This document shows, in pieces, positions 30,132-37,151 of a stretch of DNA of 64,000 nt (positions are counted from its first letter, which is position 1; every line of letters starts with the position of its first letter). Both the position numbers and the translations under genes were made by a program. Under the pieces are notes generated by a model. That model saw only the letters and a program-made list of their open reading frames with translations, ran no database searches and was not told the DNA's origin. The stretch is from Tumebacillus algifaecis (GTDB taxonomy: Bacteria; Bacillota; Bacilli; Tumebacillales; Tumebacillaceae). The stretch is from NCBI RefSeq assembly GCF_002243515.1, contig NZ_CP022657.1, positions 1,913,001-1,977,000 of the forward strand. Direction: 5' to 3'.

Positions 30132-30881
30132 ATGGCAATTGAAAAAACTGCCCCGCATCAGAAGTATTCGGACGAGCAGGTCAAACATTTGATTGCCGCT
30201 TCACAAGGAGGGGATGATGGTGCTCGCGAGGCGCTGATCGTCTCCAATCAGCGACTGGTCTGGTCGGTCGTCCAGCGTTTTCTCAACCGCGGTTACGAAG
30301 CGGATGATCTCTTTCAGATCGGCTGCATCGGTCTGATGAAGGCGATCGACAAGTTCGATCTTTCGTATGATGTGCGCTTCTCTACCTATGCGGTCCCGAT
30401 GATCATCGGTGAAATCCAGCGCTTCTTGCGCGATGACTCCACTGTCAAAGTCTCCCGCTCACTCAAGGAGACGGCACGGCAAGTGCGCCGCACCCGCGAT
30501 GAATTGGCCAAAAAGCTCAACCGCCAGCCGCACATCAACGAAGTGGCGCAGGCGATGGGGATGGAGCCGACCGAGGTGGTCTTTGCTTTAGAGTCGATGC
30601 GCCAGCCCGCGTCGATCCACGAGACCGTTTTTGAAAATGATGGAGATCCGATCTACCTGATGGATCAGATCTCCGACGAGACGCAAAACAAGTGGTTTGA
30701 TAAACTGGCGTTGCACGACGCTTTGGCGCGGTTGCCCGAACGGGAGCGCTTGATCGTCTTCATGCGCTTCTTCCGCGACAAAACGCAGGCCGAAGTGGCC
30801 GAAGTGCTGGGCATCTCGCAGGTGCAGGTGTCGCGGCTGGAGAAAAAGATTTTACAGATAATTCGCGATCAGCTCGGTTAA
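30132..30881 (+). CDS. sigF: RNA polymerase sigma-F factor
   Basis: 249 residues. Region 2 (NQRLVWSVVQRFLNRGYEADDLFQIGCIGLMKAIDKFD), region 3 and the region 4 helix-turn-helix (TQAEVAEVLGISQVQVSRLEKK) are intact. It is the first forespore-specific sigma factor and drives early forespore genes; SpoIIAB controls its activity. The start is 11 bases past spoIIAB with GGGGGATGCAGG as ribosome binding site. Confidence 0.96.
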   Translation: MAIEKTAPHQKYSDEQVKHLIAASQGGDDGAREALIVSNQRLVWSVVQRFLNRGYEADDLFQIGCIGLMKAIDKFDLSYDVRFSTYAVPMIIGEIQRFLRDDSTVKVSRSLKETARQVRRTRDELAKKLNRQPHINEVAQAMGMEPTEVVFALESMRQPASIHETVFENDGDPIYLMDQISDETQNKWFDKLALHDALARLPERERLIVFMRFFRDKTQAEVAEVLGISQVQVSRLEKKILQIIRDQLG

Positions 30882-30905
30882 GTTCTGCACTTCTGCCCCA
30901 TACTA
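30876..30905 (+). promoter_or_regulatory. Candidate sigma-G promoter of the 48-aa membrane protein
   Basis: CATACTA (30899-30905) is a perfect sigma-G -10 element. GGTTA (30876-30880), 18 bases upstream, is a weaker -35 with two mismatches to GHATR. The start would be near 30912, inside the short gap after sigF and just before the ribosome binding site at 30923. Confidence 0.4.
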
Positions 30906-30935
30906 CCGAAAGAAGCATGTGCGAGGTGATGGTGG

Positions 30936-31082
30936 ATGGAGGAGAAAGTGAAAACGACCAAGCGCCGCGTGGTCTGGCTGGCTGTTCTGCTAGCCCTTCT
31001 CGCCGTCAGCGCGGGAGGGTATGTCTGGTGGGATCAAACGGCTGTCAAATATGATCGGATCACCAACGCGACGCGAGTTTAA
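30936..31082 (+). CDS. 48-residue single-helix membrane protein between sigF and spoVAC
   Basis: Reads MEEKVKTTKRRVVWLAVLLA, then LLAVSAGGYVWWD and a polar tail ending NATRV. A lysine/arginine-rich cytoplasmic start, one membrane helix (about 12-31), and a short outer tail give N-in topology. The ribosome binding site GAGGTGAT is ideal and five bases before the ATG. It sits where spoVAA and spoVAB are found in Bacillus, is preceded by a perfect sigma-G -10 box and followed by its own terminator. I do not recognise the family. Its job in the forespore membrane is unknown. Confidence 0.7.
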   Translation: MEEKVKTTKRRVVWLAVLLALLAVSAGGYVWWDQTAVKYDRITNATRV

Positions 31083-31091
31083 GATCGATCG

Positions 31092-31129
31092 AAAAGCAGG
31101 TACCTTTTCCAAAAAGTGCCTGCTTTTTT
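31092..31129 (+). terminator. Terminator between the 48-aa gene and spoVAC
   Basis: AAAAGCAGGTAC and GTGCCTGCTT pair around a 12-base loop, followed by six T. It separates spoVA transcription from sigF. Confidence 0.85.
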
Positions 31130-31132
31130 CTT

Positions 31133-31162
31133 TCATAGCACAGGCACTCCCTTGGCAAGCTA
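31133..31162 (+). promoter_or_regulatory. Candidate sigma-G promoter of the spoVA operon
   Basis: TCATA (31133-31137), 18 bases, CAAGCTA (31156-31162). Each element has one mismatch to GHATR / CATNHTA. It lies just after the terminator and before spoVAC, so spoVA would have its own late forespore start. Confidence 0.45.
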
Positions 31163-35548: not shown

Positions 35549-35605
35549 TGTTGTCTTAACTGGGTAATTATGGGTTTGAGGGTCTGGAGAGGAGATAAAA
35601 TACAG

Positions 35606-36942
35606 ATGTATCTGCACGGAACGAGTCGCATCAACGAACAGGGTCATTTGGAGATTGGCGGCGTGGACACGACAGAACTTGTGAAGAGTTTTGGAACACC
35701 GCTGTACGTGTACGATGAGGCGATGATGCGTGAGACGATTCGCGCGTACAAGGCTGCTTTTGCCACATCCGGATTGCGCTATGAAGTTGCATATGCGTCG
35801 AAAGCGTTTTGTACGCTGGCGATGTGCCGGATTATCGACGAAGAAGGGTTGGCGCTCGATGTGGTGTCGAGCGGCGAACTCTACACGGCGTTACAGGCTG
35901 GATTCCCGGCGGAGCGCATTCACTTTCACGGCAACAACAAGACGCCTGACGAGATCGATTTGGCCTTGCAGGCCGGTATTGGTGAATTTGTCGTCGATAA
36001 CTTTCATGAGCTGAAACTGCTCGGAGCGCTCGCGACGCAAAAAGGTGTGATCGCCGACATTCTGTTGCGCTTGGCACCAGGCGTGGAAGCGCACACGCAC
36101 GAGTACATCTCGACCGGGCAGGAGGATTCGAAATTTGGCTTCGACATGAAAGGCGACATGGCGCGTCGGGCGGTCGAAACGGCTCTGTCCACTCCGGGCG
36201 TTCGGCTGATCGGTCTTCATTCGCACATCGGATCACAAATTTTCGAGACGGAAGGATTTTCGGAAGCTGTTGGCATCGTCTCCAGTTTCTTCGGTGAATG
36301 TGTGCGTGAACTGGGAGCAAAAGATCTGCATAAACTTAACGTCGGTGGTGGGTTTGGCATTCGCTATACGGAAGAGGACACGCCGCTTCAAGCCGATCAG
36401 TACATCACAGCGATTGGCCAAGCGATTCAAGCTGCGTTTGATCAACTCGACTTGTCCTATCCCATGATCGTCATCGAACCGGGCCGCTCCATCGTCGGCG
36501 CTGCTGGCACCACGCTGTACACGGTCGGCTCGACGAAAGACATCCCAGGTGTGCGCAAATACGTTTCGGTCGATGGGGGATGTCGGACAATCCGCGTCCC
36601 GCGCTGTATCAGGCTGTTTACGAAGCGATGCTCGCCAATCGGGCGACTGAGGCCAATGCGGAACTCGTTTCGATCGCAGGCAAAGCGTGCGAGTCGGGCG
36701 ACATGCTGATCTGGGATGTCAATCTGCCGACCGTGCAGGCAGGCGATGTTCTGGCTGTGTCCTGTACAGGTGCGTATTGCTATTCGATGGCGAGCAACTA
36801 CAACCGCATCGCCCGTCCAGCCGTCGTCTTCGTGCAAAACGGGCAGGCGGATCTGGTGGTGCAGCGGGAGAGCCATGTCGATTTGATTTCGCACGATCTG
36901 ATTCCGGCTCGGCTGACCGGAAAGGTGCTGGCGAACCAATAG
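35606..36942 (+). pseudogene. lysA: Diaminopimelate decarboxylase, interrupted by a frameshift
   Basis: The product would convert meso-diaminopimelate to lysine with PLP. Part one (from ATG 35606) contains the PLP lysine K66 in YEVAYASKAF, GLHSHIGSQ, NVGGGFG and EPGRSIVG. At VSVDGG the frame is lost and a stop follows at 36709. The rest (DNPRPALYQAVYEA, CESGD, GAYCYSMASNYN, to 36942) continues in the next frame. Five G at 36575-36579 where six are needed explain the break; with one more G the protein would be 445 residues, the normal length. It may be a real mutation or a sequencing error in a homopolymer. Confidence 0.88.
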
Positions 36943-37022: not shown

Positions 37023-37151
37023 TTGGCTTTGATGTTCTCTTTTCTGCCGAGAATTGTACAGTTTTTCGGGATCTTCCAGAATGTAGTCGGGTTCATTCAA
37101 CCGATTTGGCCTATGATCTCGACCTTCTTCACCCGTCGGGCTGCTGCGTAA
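37023..37151 (+). CDS. 42-residue hydrophobic/amphipathic small protein
   Basis: A TTG start at 37023 follows a near-perfect AAAGGAGGG by seven bases. The frame reads LALMFSFLPRIVQFFGIFQN, then VVGFIQPIWPMISTFFTRRAAA, and stops inside the terminator stem at 37149-37151. The peptide is rich in F, I and P and could lie along or in a membrane. I do not recognise it. Ribosome binding site plus immediate terminator make it a plausible small gene. Confidence 0.55.
   Translation: MALMFSFLPRIVQFFGIFQNVVGFIQPIWPMISTFFTRRAAA

Follow-up and report, generated by a model that had tools for sequence, protein, structure and literature searches.

A small gene between sigF and spoVAC

The stretch analysed here, referred to as the window, comprises 64,000 nucleotides of Tumebacillus algifaecis, whose genome is near that of Tumebacillus avium (SpoVAC identity 91%; NCBI places T. 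avium in the Alicyclobacillaceae). Its sporulation cluster runs in the order spoIIAA, spoIIAB, sigF, a 48-aa ORF, spoVAC, spoVAD, spoVAEb, spoVAEa, spoVAF and lysA. The small ORF starts 54 bases after the sigF stop codon and ends 117 bases short of spoVAC. The features around it are the following:

30132-30881, plus strand: sigF, the upstream neighbour and last gene of spoIIAA-spoIIAB-sigF
30876-30880, plus strand: -35-like element GGTTA, overlapping the last codon and the stop codon of sigF
30899-30905, plus strand: exact sigma-G-type -10 box CATACTA, conserved in genomes that carry the gene
30923-30929, plus strand: ribosome binding site GAGGTGA, 6 bases 5' of the ATG
30936-31082, plus strand: 48-aa miniprotein ORF, a single-pass membrane protein with the tail ...VKYDRITNATRV
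31091-31128, plus strand: intrinsic terminator, a stem-loop of -17.4 kcal/mol and then a T run, 3' of the miniprotein stop codon
31200-31658, plus strand: spoVAC, the downstream neighbour and first of the spoVAC-D-Eb-Ea-F row

These features bear out an initial sequence-only reading of the DNA, which had placed a 48-residue frame with a good ribosome binding site between sigF and spoVAC. At the other end of the cluster, lysA (35570-36942) appears to be interrupted near 36575 by a shift of reading frame: its 379-aa ORF terminates in the wrong frame, and the C-terminal residues to be expected (MSDNPRPALYQ...) are encoded in a different one at 36580-36942. The cause would be either a sequencing error or a real mutation. 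A 42-codon frame, LALMFSFLPRIVQFFGIFQNVVGFIQPIWPMISTFFTRRAAA, lies 3' of lysA at 37023-37151, with a strong ribosome binding site ahead of it and a terminator-like hairpin and T run after it, both identified by eye.

Conservation across the family and order

We sampled 14 genomes from five families of the order, among them T. avium (G001), T. flagellatus (G004), T. lacus (G005), T. permanentifrigoris (G006) and the metagenome bin DeMMO6_24 (G011). A protein search finds the miniprotein between sigF and spoVAC in all three genomes of the genus and all seven of the family, with 59-88% identity to the window sequence in the six other family genomes. A single-sequence search of the 14 order genomes gives weak matches in G010 and G007 (E 0.08-0.09) that nevertheless lie between sigF and spoVAC, and reading the sigF-spoVAC gaps of G007, G009, G010, G011 and G013 reveals small ORFs of the same build. 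In G012, a 40-aa version was found by its position after sigF. The miniprotein directly follows sigF in 13 of the 14 genomes and in each of the five families, and its position between sigF and spoVAC is kept in 12 genomes of four families. Only G008 has no miniprotein in the region read after sigF. This distribution fits a presence since the ancestor of the order with one loss, in G008. Conservation of the frame in relatives had been named beforehand as a check on this gene, and the gene passes it.

Codon comparison of the seven family sequences (21 pairs) indicates that most changes collect at third codon positions; between the window and T. avium, positions 1, 2 and 3 carry 1, 4 and 16 changes, respectively. 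The dN/dS ratio is 0.10-0.32 in thirteen pairs and 0 in the pair G001-G002, whose proteins are identical, and it is not computable in the other seven, where synonymous sites are saturated. Within the last 12 codons, family pairs differ by 0-1 nonsynonymous versus 1-9 synonymous changes, and the single nonsynonymous change always comes from one residue of the window sequence.

The six distant members are also recovered by profiles from which each was left out, with scores of 33.1 (G007), 39.6 (G009), 52.8 (G010), 24.1 (G011), 22.3 (G012) and 19.5 bits (G013), whereas the top score among 328 small background ORFs is 9.5 bits. For every member, 500 class-preserving shuffles all stay below its own score, although those of G013 reach 16.6 bits. 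With a model built from the family only, the same six members score 7.0-20.4 bits and the highest-scoring background ORF 5.3. Tail ends in the alignment include KYDRITNAKRV, KYHVVSNATEL, NYDTVSNASRL, KHHSVTNATEL, KYDPVANATEL, NYRQLSDAQEL and KDSHITDAISI.

Since the frame is kept in 13 of 14 order genomes and dN/dS is low, the 48-aa ORF is a real coding gene under purifying selection. The idea of a chance ORF in the sigF-spoVAC spacer, which its shortness and its lack of a database family might suggest, has next to no probability in view of this selection, the third-position bias and the breadth of occurrence; codon-level conservation rules it out.

A single-helix protein without a database family

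The miniprotein consists of a basic N-terminus, a hydrophobic core from residue 12, an aromatic belt and a conserved C-terminal tail. The earlier description of a basic, single-helix miniprotein agrees with the five Lys/Arg residues ahead of the core in the window sequence and with the one helix predicted by AlphaFold2 (residues 3-47, pLDDT 73, pTM 0.36, from 6 sequences), a model with little information on the tail. Across members, the net charge is +2 to +6 before the core and -1 to +3 behind it. The N-terminus is the more positive end in ten of the twelve distinct sequences (the ends are equal in G001 and reversed in G003), from which we infer that the tail likely faces outward. The N-terminus is also the least conserved part of the protein. 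The window miniprotein contains no cysteine and hence no lipobox of the YhcN/YlaJ type; by eye, a lipobox-like LIGC appears in one of the twelve distinct sequences, that of G009.

Scans of twelve members against Pfam and NCBIfam place the miniprotein in no family, all matches being far below the cut-offs. The best NCBIfam match (E 0.0059) is to the FliL model, which five of the twelve members hit, and the best match in a PDB search has an E-value of 0.06. Matches to FliL, an anti-sigma factor, TrbK, EIAV gp90 and EmrA are likewise weak and were rejected. The part of the literature covered on Tumebacillus and Effusibacillus spoVA and on small forespore proteins, which takes in few subscription papers and no preprints, holds nothing on this gene. 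The miniprotein is a new small-protein family, of a kind that is already known, namely lineage-specific sporulation membrane accessory proteins. Its shortness has let a complete, conserved sporulation gene escape the curated family libraries.

A probable sigma-G-type promoter and a predicted terminator

The sigma-G consensus is GHATR-N17-19-CATNHTA. GGTTA-N18-CATACTA is found at the same place in all seven family genomes amid variable flanking bases. Elsewhere in the order, the corresponding place reads GGATA (G009, G010 and G011), GATTG (G007) or GATTA (G012). The perfect -10 box that had been pointed out in the window is present as CATACTA in seven of the 13 carriers and as variants in five more (CATGCTA in G007 and G012, CATACTT in G009, CATACTG in G010 and CATAGTA in G011). 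Twelve carriers therefore have a box, and in G013 none is recognisable.

Within any one genome the match is less telling. GGTTA fits three of the five consensus positions of the -35 element, and the window promoter as a whole matches at 9 of 11 positions, a level that 87 of 300 shuffles equal and that is not beyond chance in one genome. The number of equally good shuffles (of 300) is 69-134 in ten genomes, 16 in G007, 7 in G012 and 293 in G013. Among ten SASP genes of the window genome, five score 10-11 of 11 and five 8-9 of 11, and one (L180) has an exact CATACTA. We consider a sigma-G-type promoter credible because the element is conserved across genomes while its flanks vary, even though the match in a single genome mostly does not exceed chance. 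The window holds five CATACTA sites against 1.5 expected, the other four being at 1242, 20221, 20836 (minus strand) and 41440.

A hairpin with a T-rich run follows the miniprotein in 12 of the 13 carriers, starting 3-35 bases from the stop codon. Folding energies range from -11.4 to -32.7 kcal/mol, and in each of these twelve none of 100 shuffles folds as well. A simple pattern scan does not list the window terminator at 31091-31128 despite its support from folding. In G012, folding gives no terminator hairpin 3' of the miniprotein, which may be read together with spoVAEa there. In all twelve carriers with an adjacent spoVAC, a predicted terminator lies between the miniprotein and spoVAC. With its -10 box and its terminator, the miniprotein would form a predicted transcription unit of its own outside the spoVA operon in these twelve, perhaps also reached by read-through from spoIIA-sigF. 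The terminator and the separate expression of a forespore membrane protein, both proposed in the sequence-only reading, are consistent with these patterns. Beyond the terminator, a putative sigma-G promoter for spoVAC (TCATA-N18-CAAGCTA, about 31133-31162) was identified by eye.

Two genomes that bear on a partnership with SpoVA

A further proposal had been that the miniprotein is a small partner of the SpoVA channel, and two genomes pull this claim in opposite directions. In its favour, G008, which lacks the miniprotein, has a broken spoVAD beside sigF, with parts near both ends gone, a frame change and a stop (pseudogene at L189 2895-3665, reverse complement). Matches span almost the full length of its spoVAC, spoVAEb, spoVAEa and spoVAF, and a second, spoVA2-type locus is present. 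Against it, G012 keeps the miniprotein, the -10 box and the tail motif, and spoVAC, spoVAD and spoVAEb are gone between sigF and spoVAEa. The G012 locus (L190) reads sigF, miniprotein, spoVAEa and lysA, with spoVAF also missing, and a spoVA2-type spoVAC lies elsewhere in this genome, which is assembled in about 400 contigs to 91% completeness. The miniprotein could therefore be tied to the DPA channel only if it can also serve SpoVA2; otherwise no such link exists.

The miniprotein is found in nine of the nine genomes in which spoVAC-D-Eb is covered nearly end to end (G000, the window genome, and G001, G004, G005, G006, G007, G009, G010 and G013). It is also present in G002, G003 and G011, where the spoVA operon was read in part only. 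Its presence does not correlate with that of spoVAF, which occurs in the family members read and in G008 and has no match at the locus in G007, G009, G010, G012 and G013. In four of these, no spoVAF match falls between spoVAEa and lysA (L192 for G007, L193 for G009, L194 for G010 and L191 for G013). We also note a second, spoVA2-like locus in the window genome (G000:C1:4140325-4142117; L048, L003), preceded by an ORF of about 219 aa. Second loci of this kind occur in G003, G004, G008, G009 and G010, and G012 has the spoVA2 type only.

Short proteins behind lysA in other families

A profile trained on 11 distinct sequences from 12 order genomes was searched against 299 genomes of the class. Among the matches listed, scores of 60-90 bits occur only in the 12 order genomes that make up the training set. 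The best score listed outside the order is 33.7 bits, for the helix only, inside a 227-aa ORF. Nearly all listed matches outside the order are inside long ORFs, and none is full-length. The search missed the G012 miniprotein, so diverged members elsewhere may have been missed too. Three listed matches (E 1.1e-4, 5.9e-4 and 2.7e-3) fall in short ORFs located after lysA, at a distance of about 4 kb from sigF, in G143 and G047 (family f32) and in G123 (f39). They encode proteins of 28-29 aa, MNRNNAILFIILVLIACGWGVYYWLFIA and like.

A model of these three proteins was then applied to 20 further loci from other families, in 19 of which lysA was found. In each of the two f36 genomes it recovers a 31-aa protein (51.2 and 24.6 bits) that lies about 430-690 bases beyond where the lysA match ends. 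Family f38 yields a weaker candidate (17.8 bits) at a distance of 1.9 kb, and the next ORF other than an order miniprotein scores 7.8. The short proteins behind lysA, all in sigF orientation, are located as follows:

L195 5395-5481: short GWGxYYW protein
L197 5643-5729: short GWGxYYW protein
L196 4792-4881: short GWGxYYW protein
L208 6219-6314: short GWGxYYW protein
L210 5228-5359: short protein (WGCYYW)

The miniprotein model gives four of the five strong short proteins 19.0-22.2 bits and the fifth 10.6. The f38 candidate reaches 7.5 bits, and the best other ORF among 2113 reaches 8.7. The scores of the strong short proteins are comparable to those of the remotest order members when left out of the profile. 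They concern only the helix (GWGxYYW), however, and comparison in the opposite direction gives weak scores, from 12.3 bits for G009 down to below 0 for G013. We tentatively regard the short proteins, tail-less and of 28-31 residues in the three families f32, f39 and f36, as candidate relatives of the miniprotein. This short form also has no family in Pfam or NCBIfam. In all five genomes examined from the families with short proteins (G047, G103, G091, G113 and G123), spoVAA and spoVAB follow sigF.

Absence of spoVAA and spoVAB

SpoVAA (PF12164) and SpoVAB (PF13782) each give no match in the 14 order genomes, with positive controls in B. subtilis, so both genes are missing as originally observed. 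We compared this with 69 sigF loci from 69 genomes of other families in the class, using spoVAA and spoVAB profiles grown in the analysis and calling the sigF site only. Here spoVAA follows sigF in 49 loci; two of the other 20 are too short to tell. In eight loci (four in f11 and one each in f13, f19, f24 and f31), sigF is followed by spoVAC without spoVAA or spoVAB. No small ORF in the 69 loci reaches 10 bits with the miniprotein models, and these five lineages, with both genes gone at the site, have no such miniprotein. A 72-aa ORF, which presumably resembles dodecin, lies between sigF and spoVAC in G027 (L154 811-1029).

In a SigF tree of 82 rows, the order groups together (support 92/84) and adjoins a group (92/69) made up of f25, with spoVAA, and f11, without it. 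This placement fits a loss of spoVAA and spoVAB in the order's ancestor and, independently, in f11. In a published survey, Alicyclobacillus acidocaldarius is reported to be likewise without spoVAA and spoVAB, and Kyrpidia tusciae to have both (PMC3533761).

The miniprotein had been said to take the place of spoVAA and spoVAB. The position and the gene content of the order agree with this; the lack of homology to either protein does not, nor do the five lineages that lack both genes without having such a gene, nor the tentative short relatives that coexist with both. Profile comparison by hhalign gives a probability of 8.3% for SpoVAA, over 15 helix columns only, and 0.3% for SpoVAB, and both candidates were rejected. 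Because the short lysA-side proteins coexist with SpoVAA and SpoVAB, replacement of these two proteins in particular now appears less likely than first thought.

Proposed function and alternatives

We propose, with a probability of about 0.35, that the miniprotein is a sigma-G-dependent accessory of the forespore or spore inner membrane that carries a docking tail and tunes the neighbouring DPA-channel or germination machinery. The full-length form is found in Tumebacillus and its order. This proposal builds on a helix that would be made in the forespore and on a conserved, probably outward tail. The basic N-terminus would stay in the forespore core, the helix would lie against a larger partner within the membrane, and the tail would reach the space between the forespore membranes and end in a docking motif, about [YHS]-x-x-[ILV]-[STA]-[ND]-A-x-[RES]-[VLI]-COOH. 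The most likely partner would be the SpoVAC-SpoVAEb channel of spoVA1, and that of spoVA2 where spoVA1 has been lost, whose opening or stability the miniprotein may tune as SpoVAA/SpoVAB or the NJ2 cap do elsewhere. In B. subtilis, SpoVAC and SpoVAEb form the channel and SpoVAD its core-side plug, and deletion of spoVAA or spoVAB leads to premature germination that is suppressed by deletion of gerA (PMC11841064). For SpoVA2, the lipoprotein NJ2 is predicted to be an outer-face cap and matters for DPA import (PMC13059800).

Several observations favour a SpoVA accessory: spoVAD beside sigF is broken in G008, the only genome of the order that lacks the miniprotein, the tentative short relatives are also within the sigF-spoVA-lysA cluster, half of the ten SASP genes of the same genome have similar promoters (at least 10 of 11), and the order lacks spoVAA and spoVAB, whereas spoVAA is found in 49 of the 69 sampled loci elsewhere in the class. 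Other observations weigh against it. G012 keeps the gene without spoVAC, spoVAD and spoVAEb at the locus, a terminator stands between the gene and spoVA in 12 of the 13 carriers, and the G008 coincidence is by itself weak (2/14 by chance). Five lineages manage without spoVAA/spoVAB at the site and without such a gene, and the topology rests on charge. Moreover, B. subtilis without a spoVA operon of its own imports DPA through SpoVA2 or C. difficile SpoVA (PMC13059800).

Level with the accessory reading is the alternative that this spore inner-membrane protein serves another machine, such as the germinant receptors, the SpoIIIA-Q channel or cortex or germ-wall enzymes, and merely adjoins spoVA. 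Its own promoter and terminator, its retention in G012 and its lack of homology to SpoVAA or SpoVAB all suit this reading. Against it stand a place kept between sigF and spoVAC by 12 genomes from four families, the absence of the gene only where spoVAD is broken, and the tentative short relatives in the same cluster.

A bolder extension, which we consider rather doubtful, is that the sigF-spoVA-lysA cluster of many Bacilli hides an ultrasmall, single-helix spore-membrane family. A tail-less form of about 28-31 residues would lie behind lysA where SpoVAA and SpoVAB exist, and a tailed form of 40-51 residues would lie behind sigF in the Tumebacillus order, its tail taking over part of the channel contact of SpoVAA/SpoVAB. 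If true, this family would be the smallest known DPA transporter component.

It is unlikely that the gene is a fourth spoIIA cistron, expressed by read-through and modulating sigma-F/sigma-G activity or timing from the membrane. It follows sigF by 54 bases, 12 of the 13 carriers have a strong terminator after it, and G008, without the gene, has a hairpin and T run directly after sigF (by eye). Yet a conserved -10 box lies between sigF and the gene and points to late expression from a start of its own, and the least conserved part of the protein is the core-side N-terminus. Improbable, too, is a precursor of an exported, Phr-like peptide, whose tail would be released by cleavage and act as a signal between the two membranes: the short length, basic N-terminus, hydrophobic stretch and conservation up to the last residue would suit it, but the alignment has, by eye, no conserved signal-peptidase motif, the aromatic belt and helix suggest a stable anchor, and the tentative short relatives keep the helix without the tail.

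We consider it very unlikely that the frame is a cis-acting leader or arrest peptide controlling terminator read-through into spoVAC. The terminator after the stop codon, spoVAC downstream and the conserved C-terminal residues recall such a device; the tail, though, differs between families, G012 has no such terminator and another gene downstream, and the helix would still be in the ribosome tunnel while the tail is made, so that its insertion could not be sensed. There is scarcely any case for a shrunken remnant of SpoVAA or SpoVAB, which would share the position and match the loss of both full genes from the order, given the hhalign results and a tail under selection of its own.

Comparison with known systems

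The miniprotein, with one helix and a conserved tail and found where SpoVAA and SpoVAB are missing, offers a minimal handle on how these two and other accessories aid the DPA channel. Like SpoVM, it is a tiny membrane-associated sporulation protein; SpoVM is an amphipathic helix of the mother cell, whereas the miniprotein appears to be a transmembrane helix under a sigma-G-type promoter. Phr peptides are exported and cut from precursors that resemble the miniprotein in size and in a layout with a conserved C-terminal end, but the miniprotein has no conserved cleavage motif (by eye) and no Rap-like neighbour gene. With SpoVAA and SpoVAB it shares the position between sigF and spoVAC, the membrane and possibly a role, although these proteins have about 200-230 and 140-150 aa, respectively, in most loci, and the miniprotein is unrelated to them and has a terminator of its own. 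A possible model is SpoVANJ2, a YhcN/YlaJ-type lipoprotein encoded in the spoVA2 locus, which as a lineage-specific accessory is predicted to cap a SpoVAC-SpoVAEb channel from outside (PMC13059800). The miniprotein differs from it as a bare helix with no conserved lipobox cysteine, a much shorter tail and a predicted transcription unit of its own.
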